Shown here in pieces: positions 56,521 to 63,313 of a stretch of 64,000 nt of DNA (positions are counted from its first letter, which is position 1; every line of letters begins with the position of its first letter). The notes beneath the pieces were generated by a model. It saw nothing but the letters and a program-made list of their open reading frames with translations, made no database searches and was not told the DNA's origin. Where the stretch lies: the NCBI GenBank assembly GCA_030603805.1, contig JAUVXD010000002.1, forward strand, positions 62,001 to 126,000. Reading direction: 5' to 3'. The DNA comes from Acholeplasmataceae bacterium (lineage in GTDB: Bacteria; Bacillota_I; Bacilli_A; Acholeplasmatales; Acholeplasmataceae). Made by a program: the position numbers and the translations under genes.

Positions 56521-56549
56521 CAACAAAAAAGAGCGTTGTTTGCGCCCTT
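56521..56549 (-). terminator. Terminator of the aro operon
   Basis: Read on the minus strand, AAGGGCG pairs with CGCTCTT (one G·T pair) across a 7-nt loop, then TTTTTTG. It starts at the aroC stop codon. Confidence 0.8.
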
Positions 56550-57534
56550 ATTGATAAGCCTTATACATGAGGTATTGATCAGCAAGCACAATGGCGAGCA
56601 CATTTTCTAAAACAATCCCTGCTCTTCTTGCGATACAGACATCATGTCTTCCGCCAATTTCTAAAGATTTGGTTTGATATGTTTCAAAATCAAACGTGTC
56701 TTGAGCCTTTTGGATGCTTGAGGTTGGTTTAATCATGACTGTAACCAATAGATCATTTCCATTAGAAATACCACCTGTGATACCTCCACTATGATTGGTC
56801 TTAGTCAATCCTTTATCATTGATGATTTCATCATTAAAAGCACTACCCAACATGGTTTTCCCTTCAAACCCTGTACCAATACTTACTGCCTTGACGGCTG
56901 GCATAGAAAACATCATTTTAGCAATTTCAGCATCGAGTTTTGAAAAGAAGGGTTCACCGATTCCAACAACCATGTCTTTAACTGTTAATAAAATCGTTCC
57001 ACCAACAGAATCGCCTTGTTTTGCGATTTCTAAGAGGTAATCATCGATTTTGCTCATGTCCGTTAAACTACCCACTTGCGTGAGTTGATGTTCAATTTTA
57101 AAAGGTATGATCATTTTAGCAATTGCCCCAGCAGCAACCAATGCCGCGGTGAGTCTGCCTGAAAAACGACCGCCACCACGATAATCTTGATACCCTTTAT
57201 ATTTCACTTCAGAGACAAAATCAGCATGACCTGGTCTTGGATGTTTTCTTAAATGTTCATAATCTTTAGATTGAACATTGGTATTTTCAATCATGAGATG
57301 AATTGGAGATCCCGTTGAGTGTCCTTGAAACATACCTGAGGTGATTTCAAAAAGGTCTGCTTCTTTTCTAGGTGTTGTACCGATAGCGCCAGGTTGTCTT
57401 TTCTTTAAATCTTCAGCAATTTGATTTAAATCAATTTTTATTCCTGCGGGTATGCCATCAATGACGACACCAATTGCTTTTTGATGGGATTCACCATAAA
57501 GTGTGATTTTAAATAATGTGCCATAAGTGTTCAT
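56548..57534 (-). CDS. aroC: Chorismate synthase
   Basis: Last step of the shikimate pathway: EPSP to chorismate, needing reduced FMN. 328 residues, somewhat shorter than the common 360-390. Signatures: YGESHQKAIGVVIDG, KRQPGAIGTTPRKEAD, GHSTGSPIHLMIENTN, RPGHADF and GGGRFSGRLTAA, with a late GRHDVCIARR. The short form looks complete at both ends. Overlaps aroE by 4 nt and is the last gene of the operon. Confidence 0.97.
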   Translation of the reverse strand: MNTYGTLFKITLYGESHQKAIGVVIDGIPAGIKIDLNQIAEDLKKRQPGAIGTTPRKEADLFEITSGMFQGHSTGSPIHLMIENTNVQSKDYEHLRKHPRPGHADFVSEVKYKGYQDYRGGGRFSGRLTAALVAAGAIAKMIIPFKIEHQLTQVGSLTDMSKIDDYLLEIAKQGDSVGGTILLTVKDMVVGIGEPFFSKLDAEIAKMMFSMPAVKAVSIGTGFEGKTMLGSAFNDEIINDKGLTKTNHSGGITGGISNGNDLLVTVMIKPTSSIQKAQDTFDFETYQTKSLEIGGRHDVCIARRAGIVLENVLAIVLADQYLMYKAYQ

Positions 57535-58316
57535 TTGAAAATAACTTCCTTAAGTTCAGAAACGAGCATATCGGTAATATCAATTTTTCTTTCCCACCAA
57601 ATCTCTTCGGATTTTAATGCTTGAATAATGAGCATATATAGTCCACCAATTCCGAGTTTGGCATATTTCATGATTTTAGTTTCCATCGGATTATAGATCA
57701 GGTCAACAACCGTTTGATTTTCGACATAAACTTTGGTTAACACAGATTCTTCGACATTTGGATAAGCTCCAATGGGGGTGGCTTGAATGTAGATATCCAC
57801 ATCAAATGGGTTTAATTTCTTGTAGGTTGTTACTTTTTGGAAAAGTGGATCAAGTCCTTGAGATTGTCTAGAAACGACGGTGATTTTCGCGCCCAAATCC
57901 GATAAAACAATATAAGCAGCCTTCGCAGCGCCACCTGCACCTAAGATATAGACGTTTTTATCTTTGACATTGACACGGTTTCTGGTCAACAATCCTAAAA
58001 AACCATCATAATCCGTATTATCACCCACAATTTTTCCATTTTTCATATAAATGGTATTAACTGCACGAATACGTGATGCCTTTGGTGTTAAGATATCGAC
58101 ATATTTCATCACTGTTTGTTTATAAGGCACCGTGACGTTGAAGCCTTTAAATGTGCCATTACGCATATGTTTGAAAAGTTGAGAAATATCTGATTCCTCA
58201 ATATCAAACAAATCATATCTCACATCTAGTCCAAACTTTTTTGCCATGAATTCATGAATTTTGGGGGATTTGCTGTAACCGATGTTTTTTCCAATCAAAC
58301 CATATCTGTCACTCAT
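57531..58316 (-). CDS. aroE: Shikimate dehydrogenase
   Basis: Reduces 3-dehydroshikimate to shikimate with NADPH. 261 residues. N-terminal substrate domain with YSKSPKIHEF, NVTVPYKQ (catalytic Lys) and GDNTDYDGF (catalytic Asp); Rossmann motif GAGGAAKAAY; and RNTI-like IRAVNTIY. Overlaps both neighbours by 4 nt. The enzyme that makes its substrate (3-dehydroquinate dehydratase) is not in this operon. Confidence 0.96.
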   Translation of the reverse strand: MSDRYGLIGKNIGYSKSPKIHEFMAKKFGLDVRYDLFDIEESDISQLFKHMRNGTFKGFNVTVPYKQTVMKYVDILTPKASRIRAVNTIYMKNGKIVGDNTDYDGFLGLLTRNRVNVKDKNVYILGAGGAAKAAYIVLSDLGAKITVVSRQSQGLDPLFQKVTTYKKLNPFDVDIYIQATPIGAYPNVEESVLTKVYVENQTVVDLIYNPMETKIMKYAKLGIGGLYMLIIQALKSEEIWWERKIDITDMLVSELKEVIFK

Positions 58317-58567
58317 TTTTGTACCTCCTTGGATAATCTCATGATTTCCTTTAAAAAAGATTCATAATGAGGCCATAAGGACTCATCGTTTAATTTTTGT
58401 TTTCTAAGTGATAAGAGTTCTTGCTCTCTTTTTTCATCTAAAATCGGTAGACCTTGATTTTTTTTATAGATACCTACTTCTTGAGAGATCGCCATACGTG
58501 CTTTAAAGAGATCCATCATTTGATCGTCAATCGCATTTATCTTTAATCTGAGTTGTTCTAAATTCAT
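58313..58567 (-). CDS. Chorismate mutase, AroQ type
   Basis: Converts chorismate to prephenate for tyrosine and phenylalanine. A free-standing 84-residue, all-helical AroQ domain: LRLKINAIDDQMMDLFKARM, EVGIYKKNQGLPILDEKREQELL and a late MRLSKEVQ. Conserved Arg, Lys and the D-x-x-R-E pattern of the active site are visible. No fused prephenate dehydratase or DAHP synthase. Four-nt overlaps with aroA upstream and aroE downstream. Confidence 0.93.
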   Translation of the reverse strand: MNLEQLRLKINAIDDQMMDLFKARMAISQEVGIYKKNQGLPILDEKREQELLSLRKQKLNDESLWPHYESFLKEIMRLSKEVQK

Positions 58568-59817
58568 TGGATAACACCTCCAAGAGCTTGATAGTCTTTA
58601 AAGAAATTGGGGTATGATTTTTGAATGGCTTCACTGTTTGTAATGGTAATCGGTCCATCTGCCTTAATGGCTGCAATCGATAATGCCATGACAATCCTGT
58701 GATCATGAAAGCCTTCTAATGTTTGATTACCTTTAAACTGATTGATACCAGTAATGGTCAGTTCATCATTGATATGTTCTAGTGGGACACCAAGCTTTTT
58801 TAGATTATAAATCATCGCTTCTAATCGATTAGATTCTTTGATTATTAATCGTTTACAATGTTTAAACCGTGTTTTTCCTTCGGAACATGCTGCAAGCACC
58901 ATCAAAATCGGACCTAAATCAGGGATTTGACTCAAATCGATTTCAATACCATAGGTTTGACTGGGTTTAACCACATAGCTTCGATTTAAGTGATCATAGT
59001 CGATATCACCTTGCATCTGTTTAATGATATCCACCATTTCAGCATCACCTTGTTTGGATAGAGGGTTCAGTTTTTTAAGTTCGATTTCACCAGATAGAAG
59101 TCCCGCAACCATGAAAAACGCAGCTTGGGAATAGTCACCTTCGACGGTTGCTTCTTGTGGCTTATAGGACTGATTGCCTTTGATATAAATAAAAGGGTCA
59201 GTCACTAAAATATGTATGCCAAATTTTTGAAGGACATCGATGGTTAAATCCACGTAGCCTTTGGATTCTAAGGGTGAGATAAGTTCAATGACTGAGTCTT
59301 TAGATAATAAAGGGAGTGCATAAAGCAGTCCTGTAATGAACTGTGATGAGACATCACCTCTCATTTTGTAATACCCTGGTTTTATTCGTCCTTTAACTTC
59401 TAAAGGTAAATAGTTATCTGTGAGTTTCTTGTAATAATTATGTTTTTGGTCAAAGACATCAAAATAAACATCTAAAGGACGATTGGGTAATCTACCTTTT
59501 CCAGTAAATGTGACAACCTCTCTTTGAAGCATTGCAATCGGAATCATAAATCTTAAAGTGGACCCTGATTCTTTACAGTCAATGATATCCGTCATTTTCT
59601 TAAACTCTTGACCTGTGATGCATTGACCTTCAATTAAAACATTGAATGCCTTGAGTGCTTCTTTGGTTGCGATTAAATCGTCTGATTCTAATAAGTTATG
59701 AATTTTGCTTTTACCTTGAGCAAGACCTGCTGCAATCAAATACCGGTGAGAAAGTGATTTTGATGATACAACATCTAACTTACCGGTTAAAGGTTTTGGA
59801 ATGATTGTGATATTCAT
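58564..59817 (-). CDS. aroA: 3-phosphoshikimate 1-carboxyvinyltransferase (EPSP synthase)
   Basis: Adds PEP to shikimate-3-phosphate. 417 residues, near the usual 427. Signatures: SSKSLSHRYLIAAGLAQGKS, CKESGSTLRFMIPIA, GRLPNRPLDVYFD, GDVSSQFITGLLYALP, and a late ESNRLEAM and GFHDHRIVMAL. Overlaps aroB and the mutase gene by 4 nt each. Confidence 0.97.
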   Translation of the reverse strand: MNITIIPKPLTGKLDVVSSKSLSHRYLIAAGLAQGKSKIHNLLESDDLIATKEALKAFNVLIEGQCITGQEFKKMTDIIDCKESGSTLRFMIPIAMLQREVVTFTGKGRLPNRPLDVYFDVFDQKHNYYKKLTDNYLPLEVKGRIKPGYYKMRGDVSSQFITGLLYALPLLSKDSVIELISPLESKGYVDLTIDVLQKFGIHILVTDPFIYIKGNQSYKPQEATVEGDYSQAAFFMVAGLLSGEIELKKLNPLSKQGDAEMVDIIKQMQGDIDYDHLNRSYVVKPSQTYGIEIDLSQIPDLGPILMVLAACSEGKTRFKHCKRLIIKESNRLEAMIYNLKKLGVPLEHINDELTITGINQFKGNQTLEGFHDHRIVMALSIAAIKADGPITITNSEAIQKSYPNFFKDYQALGGVIQ

Positions 59818-60827
59818 AAAAGATCCATAGCCTTTAACTTGATGATTTCAGGAAAACCTGGTTTATGAACAATGATAAAGTTTAAACCATCTGCTAAAAA
59901 CTTCTTATCATGGATGATTTCTGATTTGTAATCTTCCATCTCTAAGAGAGGTTCTTGAACCAGACCTCTCTTTAAGAATAGGGATTTGACTTCATCGTAA
60001 AGATTAGGATCTGTTTTTCCAAGGGTCATGCCAAGTTGAAGTGCAATAAGCATACCATAACTAATCGCTTCACCGTGTTTATAGGTTTCATAACAATGCT
60101 TCTTTTCAATGGCATGACCAAAGGTGTGACCAAAATTAAGTAGCATTCGTTCTTTATAATCATAGGGATCGATTAAAACAACTTCTCTTTTCACATGAAT
60201 AGACTGTTCAATTTCCTTAATCGTAACTGTGTCATGCTCGAGTAAGTATTGGTATAATTTTTTATCCCCAATCAGTCCAGCCTTAATCATTTCAGCAAGT
60301 CCGTTGTTATATTCTCTTTGGGGTAGTGTCTTTAAAAAACTTGTATCGATAAAGACAAGCTTGGGTTGATAAAAGGAGCCTAATAGATTTTTACCTTGTT
60401 TTAAGTCAATACCTACTTTACCACCGATACTGCTATCGACCATCGCAAGGAGTGTCGTGGGTATTTGAATATAAGGTATACCTCTAAAAAGGGTTGCAGC
60501 AACAAATCCTGTGAGGTCTCCAATGACACCACCACCTAAAGCAATCATTAAATGATTTCGTTTAATGCCTTTTTCAATTAAGGTATCGACAACTTTTTGA
60601 TAAGTGTCGAGTGATTTTGAAGATTCACCTTCAGGAACAACCACATAAGATACATGAAAAGATGCAAGAGCCTCAACCATCTCTTGATGATAAAGTGCAT
60701 AGACCTTTTGATCAGTAACAACAAAAAGTTCATCATATCTATAAATAGATTTGATGTGCTTTGAAAGTTCTAAAAGATTGTGATCATGGATGACAATGTC
60801 ATAGTTTGGCATCTTAATCTGTGTCAA
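59814..60827 (-). CDS. aroB: 3-dehydroquinate synthase
   Basis: Cyclises DAHP to 3-dehydroquinate with NAD+ and a divalent metal. 337 residues. NAD loop ALGGGVIGDLTGFVAAT, phosphate loop PTTLLAMVDSSIGGK, KQGKNLLGSFYQP, metal ligands in GLAEMIKAGLIGD and NFGHTFGHAIE. The start overlaps tyrA by 14 nt. Confidence 0.97.
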   Translation of the reverse strand: MTQIKMPNYDIVIHDHNLLELSKHIKSIYRYDELFVVTDQKVYALYHQEMVEALASFHVSYVVVPEGESSKSLDTYQKVVDTLIEKGIKRNHLMIALGGGVIGDLTGFVAATLFRGIPYIQIPTTLLAMVDSSIGGKVGIDLKQGKNLLGSFYQPKLVFIDTSFLKTLPQREYNNGLAEMIKAGLIGDKKLYQYLLEHDTVTIKEIEQSIHVKREVVLIDPYDYKERMLLNFGHTFGHAIEKKHCYETYKHGEAISYGMLIALQLGMTLGKTDPNLYDEVKSLFLKRGLVQEPLLEMEDYKSEIIHDKKFLADGLNFIIVHKPGFPEIIKLKAMDLL

Positions 60828-61644
60828 AGGCTTTCCTCTTTTCTTTCGCTTCTTTTAAATAAGTCTTTAAGGATTCTAGGTCATCGTTTTCAATCATTGA
60901 TTTTAACGCATTGAGCTCATGACTGAAATCATCGATTTTTTTAATGAGCGCTTCTTTATTTTCTAAAAAGAGTTCACTCCACATGACTTCATTGATTTTT
61001 GCAATTCGAGTTAAATCTCTAAATGAGTCGCCGGTTGCTTTTTTAGTTTCAGTTAAATGGTCACTATGCATCAGTGCAACTGCAAGTGCATGGGTGAGTT
61101 GTGAGGTGAATGCAATCAGTTCATCGTGCGTGTTTGCATCTGTTACTGTTATTTTACCAAATTTTAAGTCGTTTGCGACAGACTTGAGCAAATCAATATC
61201 TGATGATTTAGACTTAACTCCAGTCACAATAATGAAATTTGCGCCATCAAACATGTTCACATCTCTGGCATTAAACCCATTTTTTTCTCTTCCAGCCATG
61301 GGGTGGTGCGACGTGTAAGAAACGTATTCGGGAAGATAGTGTTCAATTTCTTTCATCATCCATGATTTAGTACCACTTAGATCAGTGACCACTTGTTTTT
61401 TTACGAAATGATGACCATAAGATTTGATGAACTCAACGTTATCTTTTGGATATAAAGCTAAAATTATTAATTCTGATTCTTTTAATAGAGTTAAATCACT
61501 TGATGGGTGAATCACATGTGCTAAAATAGCTTGATTCATTATTTCTGGATTAGCATCATATCCATAGACATCATGTCCTGCTTTTTTGAGTCCTTCGGCA
61601 TATGAGCCTCCCATCAGACCCAAGCCAACGATAAAGATTTTCAT
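60814..61644 (-). CDS. tyrA: Prephenate dehydrogenase
   Basis: Oxidatively decarboxylates prephenate to 4-hydroxyphenylpyruvate, the committed step to tyrosine. 276 residues: Rossmann motif VGLGLMGGSYAEGLKKAG with a following Asp (YGYDANPE) that favours NAD+, and HHPMAGREKNGF, the substrate loop with catalytic His. No C-terminal ACT domain, so no obvious allosteric tyrosine control of the protein; control may instead lie in the leader RNA of this operon. Its position directly after aroF points to tyrosine as the end product sensed. Confidence 0.95.
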   Translation of the reverse strand: MKIFIVGLGLMGGSYAEGLKKAGHDVYGYDANPEIMNQAILAHVIHPSSDLTLLKESELIILALYPKDNVEFIKSYGHHFVKKQVVTDLSGTKSWMMKEIEHYLPEYVSYTSHHPMAGREKNGFNARDVNMFDGANFIIVTGVKSKSSDIDLLKSVANDLKFGKITVTDANTHDELIAFTSQLTHALAVALMHSDHLTETKKATGDSFRDLTRIAKINEVMWSELFLENKEALIKKIDDFSHELNALKSMIENDDLESLKTYLKEAKEKRKAFDTD

Positions 61645-62660
61645 TTGAGTTTTTTATCTAAAACTGTGGACAGTTTTTCTAGTTCATCCATCATATGGCT
61701 AAACTTAGATAGCTTAAGCGATTGTGCTCCATCGGATAAGGCATGTTCGGGATCATGATGAACTTCAACAATCAGTCCATCTGCACCAACAGCCATCGAT
61801 GCCATCGAAAGTTTTTCAATCATGTTCCATCTGCCTGCTGCATGGGATGGGTCAATGATGACAGGTAGATGTGAAACTTCTTTAACAGCGAGTACTGCAC
61901 TAATATCTAATGTATTTCTTGTATATTTTTCAAAGGTTCGAATACCACGTTCGCATAAAATGACATTTTCGTTACCGCCAGCCATAATATATTCTGCAGA
62001 CATCAGCCATTCTTCAATGGTTGCAGATAAACCTCTTTTAAGTAAAATAGGCTTTGTTGATTTCCCAAGTGCTTTAAGAAGGTGGAAGTTTTGCATATTT
62101 CTAGCACCGACTTGAATGACATCGACATATTGTTCAAAAAGAGGTAGTAAATCAGCTGAAGGAATTTCTGTGACAATGGCTAACCCCAGTTCATCTCCGA
62201 TTTTTCTTAACAATTTCAAACCTTCAAGTTCTAAACCTTGAAACGCATAAGGTGAAGTTCTTGGCTTATACGCACCACCTCTAAGCATGTGCGCACCTGC
62301 TTTTTTGATTCCTTTGGCTATCACTCTTAATTGATCTTCTGATTCAACAGAACAAGGTCCTGCCATCATCACAAATTGATCTCCACCAATTTCAATATCT
62401 TCTCTTATTTTGACAATCGTATCTTTTTTCTTAAAGCTACGACTTGCTTTCTTAAAGGGTGTTGAAACACGGATAACTTCCTTGACACCTTCGAAAGCGT
62501 AAAGATCACTAGGATCAATGGCTGAGATATCTCCAATAATGCCGAAAACAACCACATCATCACTTGATGCGTCTTTAATTTCTAAGTTTTTACTTCGAAT
62601 AAATTCAACGAGTCTTTCATATTCTTTTTTCGTTGCTTCTTTTTTCATTTGAACAATCAT
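61641..62660 (-). CDS. aroF: 3-deoxy-7-phosphoheptulonate (DAHP) synthase, type I-beta
   Basis: First step of the shikimate pathway, joining PEP and erythrose-4-phosphate. 339 residues from ATG 62660 (AAAGGAG upstream); the longer reading to 62693 runs through the terminator hairpin. An N-terminal ferredoxin-like extension (~1-70) typical of the I-beta group can act as a regulatory domain. The barrel has MAGPCSVESEDQL, RGGAYKPRTSPYAFQGL, LKRGLSATIEEWL, DPSHAAGRWN and EVHHDPEHALSDGAQSL. First structural gene of the operon, 123 nt after the leader-peptide stop. Confidence 0.97.
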   Translation of the reverse strand: MIVQMKKEATKKEYERLVEFIRSKNLEIKDASSDDVVVFGIIGDISAIDPSDLYAFEGVKEVIRVSTPFKKASRSFKKKDTIVKIREDIEIGGDQFVMMAGPCSVESEDQLRVIAKGIKKAGAHMLRGGAYKPRTSPYAFQGLELEGLKLLRKIGDELGLAIVTEIPSADLLPLFEQYVDVIQVGARNMQNFHLLKALGKSTKPILLKRGLSATIEEWLMSAEYIMAGGNENVILCERGIRTFEKYTRNTLDISAVLAVKEVSHLPVIIDPSHAAGRWNMIEKLSMASMAVGADGLIVEVHHDPEHALSDGAQSLKLSKFSHMMDELEKLSTVLDKKLK

Positions 62661-62680
62661 CGTTCTTCTCCTTTGGTTTA

Positions 62681-62783
62681 AAAATAAAAACACCCCTCAA
62701 GGAACCTCGAGGGATGAATGAGTTTCATGTGCCTGCTGTTCCTTTTTTATCGCATAAAAAGGAATGCCTAGCAATCCTTTTGT
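62681..62783 (-). promoter_or_regulatory. Transcription attenuator of the aro operon (alternative hairpins and terminator)
   Basis: Directly after the leader peptide, four segments can pair in exclusive ways (minus strand). Segment 1 AAAAGGA...TGC (62781-62771) pairs with segment 2 GCA...TCCTTTT (62767-62757). Segment 2 TTCCTTTTT (62764-62756) pairs with segment 3 AAAAAGGAA (62747-62739). Segment 3 AAGGAAC (62744-62738) pairs with segment 4 GTTCCTT (62705-62699). The terminator CATCCCTCGA (62716-62707) pairs with TTGAGGGGTG (62700-62691) and is followed by TTTTTATTTTT. Stalling at the Tyr codons leaves segment 1 free, so 1:2 and 3:4 form and transcription continues. A ribosome at the stop codon covers segment 1, so 2:3 and the terminator form. 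Confidence 0.75.
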
Positions 62784-62828
62784 TTAATGATATGCGTAAT
62801 AATAAACAACAGTTTTATGGGTTAACAT
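62784..62828 (-). CDS. Tyrosine-rich leader peptide of the aro operon
   Basis: 14 codons: MLTHKTVVYYYAYH, with Tyr at positions 9, 10, 11 and 13. The ATG at 62828-62826 follows AAGGTGAT with 4 nt between, the same close-spaced SD used by recG, dnaE and the 25282 gene, so it should be translated. It lies ~20 nt after the predicted transcription start and 1-3 nt before the first hairpin arm of the attenuator. The peptide itself probably has no function; ribosome speed over its Tyr codons would report Tyr-tRNA supply. Too short for most gene finders. Confidence 0.78.
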   Translation of the reverse strand: MLTHKTVVYYYAYH

Positions 62829-62855
62829 CGAAATCACCTTTCTTTGCTTGTAGAT

Positions 62856-62884
62856 ATAGTATCACATTCACTTAAAATTGACAA
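62856..62884 (-). promoter_or_regulatory. Promoter of the aro operon
   Basis: Minus strand TTGTCA (62879-62884), 17-nt spacer, TACTAT (62856-62861) preceded by TGTGA, an extended -10. The transcription start would be near 62849, ~190 nt before aroF. No other promoter is seen in the leader. Confidence 0.72.
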
Positions 62885-62927
62885 GATATAGATTTGAAAA
62901 GAAAATAACTTTTTTTGAAAATAGGTA

Positions 62928-62968
62928 TTGTGTTTTGCACAGTACGGTGTTATTATAGTAGTGTGCAA
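62928..62968 (+). promoter_or_regulatory. padR promoter with overlapping inverted-repeat operator
   Basis: TTGTGT (62928-62933), 17-nt spacer, TATTAT (62951-62956). The -10 sits in the centre of an inverted repeat, TTGCACAGTAC (62935-62945) and GTAGTGTGCAA (62958-62968), whose arms agree at 10 of 11 positions. Repressor binding there would exclude polymerase, as in autoregulated PadR genes. The aro promoter on the other strand is only ~44 nt away. Confidence 0.7.
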
Positions 62969-62989
62969 CACACAGTAAGGAGGTATGAC

Positions 62990-63313
62990 ATGAATACACA
63001 ATTCAAAAAAGGTATCCTAGAAATGTGCATTCTTTCGCTCATCAAAGATCATGACATGTATGGTTTTGAAGTGATTGAACGATTATCATCAGAAATTGAT
63101 GTGAACGAAAACACGGTATATCCGATTTTAAGAAGACTCACAACACAAGGACTTTTTGAAACCTACGTTGAGCAAACCAACATCGGAGCACCTAGAAAGT
63201 ATTACCGGTTGACTAAAGCAGGCGACAAAAAATTAGAAGCCTATGAACACGAATGGCGAACATTCTTAAAAGGTGTATTTAAAATATTAGGAGGTATGGA
63301 ACATGAAAAATAA
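62990..63313 (+). CDS. PadR-family transcriptional regulator
   Basis: 107 residues from ATG 62990, with AAGGAGG ideally spaced; an upstream start at 62915 would cover the promoter. The winged helix-turn-helix reads KKGILEMCILSLIKDHDMYGFEVIERL, then VNENTVYPILRRLTTQGLFETY and GAPRKYYRLTKAGDKKLE, the PadR hallmark sequence. A short C-terminal helix mediates dimerisation. It overlaps the next gene by 11 nt. PadR plus HAAS-type membrane protein is a common Firmicute pair whose signal is usually unknown. Confidence 0.94.
   Translation: MNTQFKKGILEMCILSLIKDHDMYGFEVIERLSSEIDVNENTVYPILRRLTTQGLFETYVEQTNIGAPRKYYRLTKAGDKKLEAYEHEWRTFLKGVFKILGGMEHEK

Follow-up and report, generated by a model that had tools for sequence, protein, structure and literature searches.

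Ribosome-mediated attenuators of the E. coli trp, pheA and his type carry regulatory codons in a leader peptide, followed by alternative hairpins, and a ribosome at the leader stop codon favours termination. In 1980 a tRNA-Tyr attenuator was proposed for E. coli aroF-tyrA, as cited in PMC2659441 and PMC8632094, and an anti-antiterminator was described for Shewanella leuA (PMC2659441). In C. glutamicum aroR-aroF, according to the account of Neshat et al. 2014 in the review PMC11802643, Phe limitation evokes a response and Tyr availability has no effect. The closest described system is uORFC-13-1 (PMC8632094, RNA Biol 2021), with 24 representatives upstream of aroF in Acholeplasma and environmental sequences: a promoter, RBS and start codon are followed by a terminator directly downstream, and uORF attenuation was proposed with Phe as the tentative amino acid, the published description of the motif containing no switch mechanism.

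The window analysed here was a stretch of 64,000 nt (contig JAUVXD010000002.1, positions 62,001 to 126,000), and all coordinates are positions in this window unless another contig is named. The host is a wall-less bacterium, a relative of Acholeplasma. At 62686-62854 on the minus strand, upstream of the DAHP synthase gene (aroF), lies a leader region which is predicted, with a probability of about 0.88, to be a ribosome-mediated transcription attenuator sensing charged tRNA-Tyr and controlling the operon aroF-tyrA-aroB-aroA-aroQ-aroE-aroC. The ORF, its Tyr codons, the pairings with their covariation and the operon content are seen in the sequence and its comparison with relatives; the tyrosine assignment and the switch anatomy are new here. 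Among the literature searched, no attenuator was shown to be tyrosine-dedicated, and a phrase search for a tyrosine attenuator gave nothing. Judged from the descriptions, the leader and uORFC-13-1 are probably the same element, as the window leader likewise lies upstream of aroF in an Acholeplasma relative and has a promoter, RBS and terminator. Unlike uORFC-13-1 with its Phe-coding U-run, the window leader contains no Phe, Tyr being the constant residue, and, unlike in that report, the alternative pairings were worked out here.

The promoter, Shine-Dalgarno sequence (SD), 14-codon ORF and four Tyr codons named in the first-pass annotation of this DNA were all present on the minus strand. The promoter-like site of sigma-70 type (62856..62884; -35 TTGTCA, 17-nt spacer, extended -10 TG-TACTAT) has counterparts of the form TTGTC...TGTGATACTAT at the matching position in genus relatives. 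The SD AAAGGUGAU (62833..62841), which is of the AGGTGAT type in most genus leaders, and the ATG at 62828 begin about 20 nt past the presumed transcription start. The leader ORF (62784..62828) encodes MLTHKTVVYYYAYH before its stop codon, with Tyr codons at positions 9, 10, 11 and 13. Within it, segment S1 (CUGUUGUUU, 62804..62812) abuts the first Tyr codon and pairs with segment C as an anti-antiterminator, this helix reaching into the Tyr codons by MFE fold and swap test (see below). Segment A (AAAAGGAUUGC, 62771..62781) starts 2 nt past the stop codon and pairs with the nearly invariant segment B (GCAUUCCUUUUU, 62756..62767), which can pair with C in its place. Segment C (AAAAAAGGAACAGCAG, 62733..62748) is the switch strand, with S1, B or D as partner; segment D comprises the 5' arm and loop of the intrinsic terminator hairpin (D + E, 62691..62716; 6 GC, 4-nt loop), and a T-run follows at 62690-62680. 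Four overlapping segments had been described before, and A, B, C and D do exist, but the fifth, S1, had been missed; the terminator, given earlier as 10 bp, measured 11 bp (62716-62691). The leader folds at -49 kcal/mol, whereas dinucleotide shuffles average -31.2 +/- 4.0 (z = -4.5).

From this arrangement we infer translation of the leader, stalling of the ribosome and an effect on transcription. In an untranslated leader, S1:C and A:B would pair and the terminator would form, so that S1:C would serve as a default-off arm. With uncharged tRNA-Tyr, a ribosome would stall on the Tyr codons and cover S1; A:B would form, and the free C could pair with the terminator loop and 5' arm, giving read-through. 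When Tyr is plentiful, a ribosome at the stop codon would cover A, the freed B would capture C, and the terminator would form, keeping the operon off. The regulatory codons, alternative hairpins and stop-codon termination are common to this leader and the E. coli trp, pheA and his type; unlike there, Tyr alone would act as regulatory codon, C forms the antiterminator with the terminator loop and 5' arm, and the default-off state would be set by pairing between the Tyr-codon region and the antiterminator strand. In this last feature, S1:C resembles the Shewanella leuA anti-antiterminator (PMC2659441).

The states were modelled by folding under a ribosome mask, which covered 18 nt on the 5' side of the first A-site base and 12 nt on its 3' side. 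Mean occupancies of C were taken over 36 leaders with the transcript folded before D is made: without a ribosome, C was held by S1 (0.63); a ribosome at the first Tyr codons left it freest (0.46 unpaired), and with one at the stop codon B held it (0.62). When D was added in the window, the expected C:D pairs were 2.7, 13.6 and 3.3 for no ribosome, Tyr and stop, respectively. The register proposed earlier, in which a Tyr-stalled ribosome favours read-through and one at the stop codon termination, agrees with this, C tending to be free or D-paired in the former state and held by B in the latter. None of 60 spacer shuffles of the window reached the real switch score, nor did any of 60 shuffled sets reach the real mean switch across 19 lineages. 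In equilibrium folding, only about every second lineage switched strongly and the others weakly, and in the Tyr-stalled state of the window B:C competes with A:B until D is transcribed; the model therefore needs a co-transcriptional order of events. In full-length folds with the ribosome at Tyr, the terminator still prevailed in 10 of the 11 leaders examined. S1 of Acholeplasma sensu stricto overlaps the leader ribosome-binding site and is not beside the Tyr codons, and one leader of this group (L037) gave no switch in the ribosome-mask model.

Covariation was assessed by a swap test, in which each lineage's own arms were compared with arms swapped among the 19 lineages (groups formed from k-mer similarity and not from a tree) in 5000 permutations. 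The own arms paired at a mean of -16.7 vs -12.7 kcal/mol for swapped arms in S1:C and of -12.5 vs -9.2 kcal/mol in C:D, with 0/5000 permutations as low in either case. These values support both predicted pairings of C, the antiterminator formed with the terminator and the anti-antiterminator formed with the Tyr-codon region, and the mutually exclusive arms, on whose conservation the first-pass annotation had made its model depend, are thus retained: own C:D and S1:C beat swapped arms in all permutations. Examples of C:D pairs across lineages are GGAAC/GUUCC, GGACA/UGUCC, GGAGAU/AUCUCC and GGCG/CGCC. The antiterminator had been considered the weak point for its length of 7 bp; this is correct for the core in the window (AAGGAAC:GUUCCUU), but the full duplex has -14.0 kcal/mol, and in most genus relatives C:D is a 10-bp two-part helix, whose four additional CCAA/UUGG pairs with the terminator 5' arm answer the objection. 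For A:B the swap test was uninformative, B being almost without variation. RNAalifold, run on a fixed-column alignment, recovered only A:B and the terminator, so the swap test was used in its place; S1:C is missed there because its register shifts between lineages. In the window, S1 and C are shifted jointly by one codon (CUGUUGUUU with GAACAGCAG), and in Acholeplasma sensu stricto (L037, L083, L191, L194) the shift goes onto the SD, C pairing with the leader ribosome-binding region (e.g. GGUCACAUU/AAUGUGACC), where folding may also shut leader translation.

Among 61 relative genomes, DAHP synthase was found in 52, and a leader with a Tyr cluster was present in 18/18 same-genus genomes that have it; the same-genus genomes without leader (G001, G008) gave no DAHP synthase match either. 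A covariance model of the leader matched 32/61 genomes, always in single copy, which argues against chance, and 27/346 genomes of a class-wide sample, other families included. The leader is thus found beyond the genus, in further genera of the family, order and class. Leaders outside the order keep the Tyr triplet, e.g. MTFIFSTYYYGDI and MATLHTAYYYSIVTQ..., each preceding DAHP synthase; the leader of Acholeplasma granularum reads MFKTNYYYYYYHM. Conservation of the Tyr codons in relatives, on which the first-pass annotation had likewise made its model depend, was confirmed by leader comparison: Tyr clusters (2-6 codons per leader) occurred in 36/36 leaders compared and Trp in 0 of the 36, both synonymous Tyr codons being used (TAT 115, TAC 41). 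The predicted ORF, SD and start codon are kept, with 13-16 codons in most relatives. In strain zrk7 (L047 / L076), the leader is intact and the DAHP synthase frame appears broken, with overlapping matches in two frames and internal stops.

The operon following the leader begins with the aroF-type DAHP synthase gene (61641..62663, minus strand; NF006421 / TIGR01361 above cut-off), continues with tyrA (60814..61644, minus) and ends with aroB, aroA, chorismate mutase (aroQ), aroE and aroC (56548..60827, minus). The sole tyrosine-specific gene is the putative prephenate dehydrogenase gene tyrA, named from its operon position and from strong prephenate dehydrogenase scores below the models' curated cut-offs (best E 2e-48). 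BLAST of the operon against plasmids gave short stretches only, with 60-80% identity, the best over aroF. Neither prephenate dehydratase (PF00800) nor PF00425 (the anthranilate / aminodeoxychorismate [PABA] synthase family) was found in this genome, which is 99.9% complete, and tyrosine is therefore the operon's only aromatic amino acid by known routes.

The published suggestion for uORFC-13-1, that the leader senses phenylalanine, or a wider one, that it senses aromatic amino acids generally, is considered very unlikely for this locus. Phe was deduced in PMC8632094 from a conserved U-run; C. glutamicum aroR, with codons Phe-Tyr-Phe unlike those of the window leader, is likewise a leader peptide preceding a DAHP synthase gene and responds to Phe, not Tyr, according to PMC11802643; and ten leaders pair Phe with Tyr codons, their genomes keeping prephenate dehydratase. 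Against this, the window leader has no Phe and its genome no detectable prephenate dehydratase, and Tyr occurs in every leader, internal Phe (position 2 excluded) being missing from 22/32. The U-run probably corresponds to the S1 arm UUUUCCUAUU found in one clade, reading Phe-Ser-Tyr, and it would be conserved because it also pairs with AAUAGGAAA. The tyrosine reading thus suggests a correction to the published Phe guess.

With residue 2 ignored, Phe occurred in the leader of 10/15 genomes with prephenate dehydratase vs 0/17 without (Fisher p = 5e-5), and of 8/13 vs 0/10 in high-quality genomes (p = 0.003). In one genus, Phe is present in the leaders of four genomes that have the enzyme and missing from that of G046 (99% complete), the one that lacks it. 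The association is suggestive, these counts ignoring kinship and including some incomplete assemblies. No leader-bearing genome tested among the 61 had PF00425, and a search for a Phe-specific leader before pheA in 13 genomes gave none that was convincing, nor a T-box. A tentative reading, to which we give slightly less than an even chance, is that this is the first tyrosine-dedicated ribosome-mediated attenuator and that leader codons follow the terminal branch kept: Tyr only without prephenate dehydratase, Tyr and Phe in many genomes with it, and never Trp where anthranilate synthase is absent. If so, the sensor would be a readable record of pathway output; it is suggested, and can be tested, that leader codons go with the end products which a genome is still able to make.

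It is similarly improbable that the leader is a metabolite- or protein-binding RNA (riboswitch or TRAP-like) in which the ORF is incidental. Segment B is more constant than pairing by itself would demand, but this can be attributed to its pairing with both A and C, and perhaps also to RNA polymerase pausing at hairpin A:B. Outside the pairing arms, the leader has no large conserved loop or junction, and the Rfam scan of the window gave no family matching it; the good SD, the start codon, the length of 13-16 codons in most relatives and the Tyr codons conserved through synonymous TAT/TAC changes all speak against an incidental ORF. That the locus holds just a constitutive terminator of the ordinary kind, or hairpins that arose by chance and regulate nothing, is scarcely credible: the terminator is the most stable element alone and dominates full-length equilibrium folds, but it sits between the promoter and aroF, the neighbour upstream is divergently transcribed, and the swap test shows covariation of the exclusive pairings.

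T-boxes (RF00230) resemble the tyrosine attenuator proposed here in sensing tRNA charging and in preceding DAHP synthase in another genus of the order; they differ in that no leader is translated, and none is located on this aro operon. Rfam gave no match to a T-box core or specifier loop in the window, and the 12 T-box matches of this genome all lie outside it. One of them (C20; L139 2042-2217, minus strand; 77.5 bits, below the Rfam gathering score) stands directly before tyrS, plausibly with UAC at the specifier position. With the leader on the aro operon and this T-box, the genome probably has two ways of sensing tyrosine. In the relative genus, L052 and L054 have a T-box before DAHP synthase (121.6 and 105.7 bits) and no leader peptide, so that two sensors have been exchanged on that gene within the order; since the clade uses T-boxes elsewhere, it allows two sensors of tRNA charging, exchanged on a single operon, to be compared directly. 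The region upstream of DAHP synthase in L053 looked similar to these T-boxes by eye. The view that a peptide-coded Tyr sensor is unusual among relatives with T-box or TRAP-type control holds in so far as the same gene has a T-box in the relative genus; it is weakened by amino-acid leader-peptide attenuators reported in Staphylococcus (PMC5794164) and Listeria (PMC5864092), and by the Acholeplasma aroF motif, described as a possible uORF in 2021 (PMC8632094).

Other leaders upstream of DAHP synthase were noticed. In Clostridium-type genomes (L080, L086, L121, L096), a mixed-aromatic leader ORF (...KFYSFFYFMFWGFYFSAGYLFCKKLNN...) precedes a terminator and has no Rfam match; it is a candidate for a separate aromatic attenuator. 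In Bacteroidales-labelled genomes (L128, L130, L133), the leaders are MKTVNAYFYYFWFTRQYAG-like and contain each of the three aromatic residues, and a terminator with its T-run is also present. Between the window leader and the gene upstream, which is divergent and PadR-like, palindromic repeats of the type TACTGTGT..ACACAGTA at 62920-63000 are kept in genus relatives and are probably the PadR operator.
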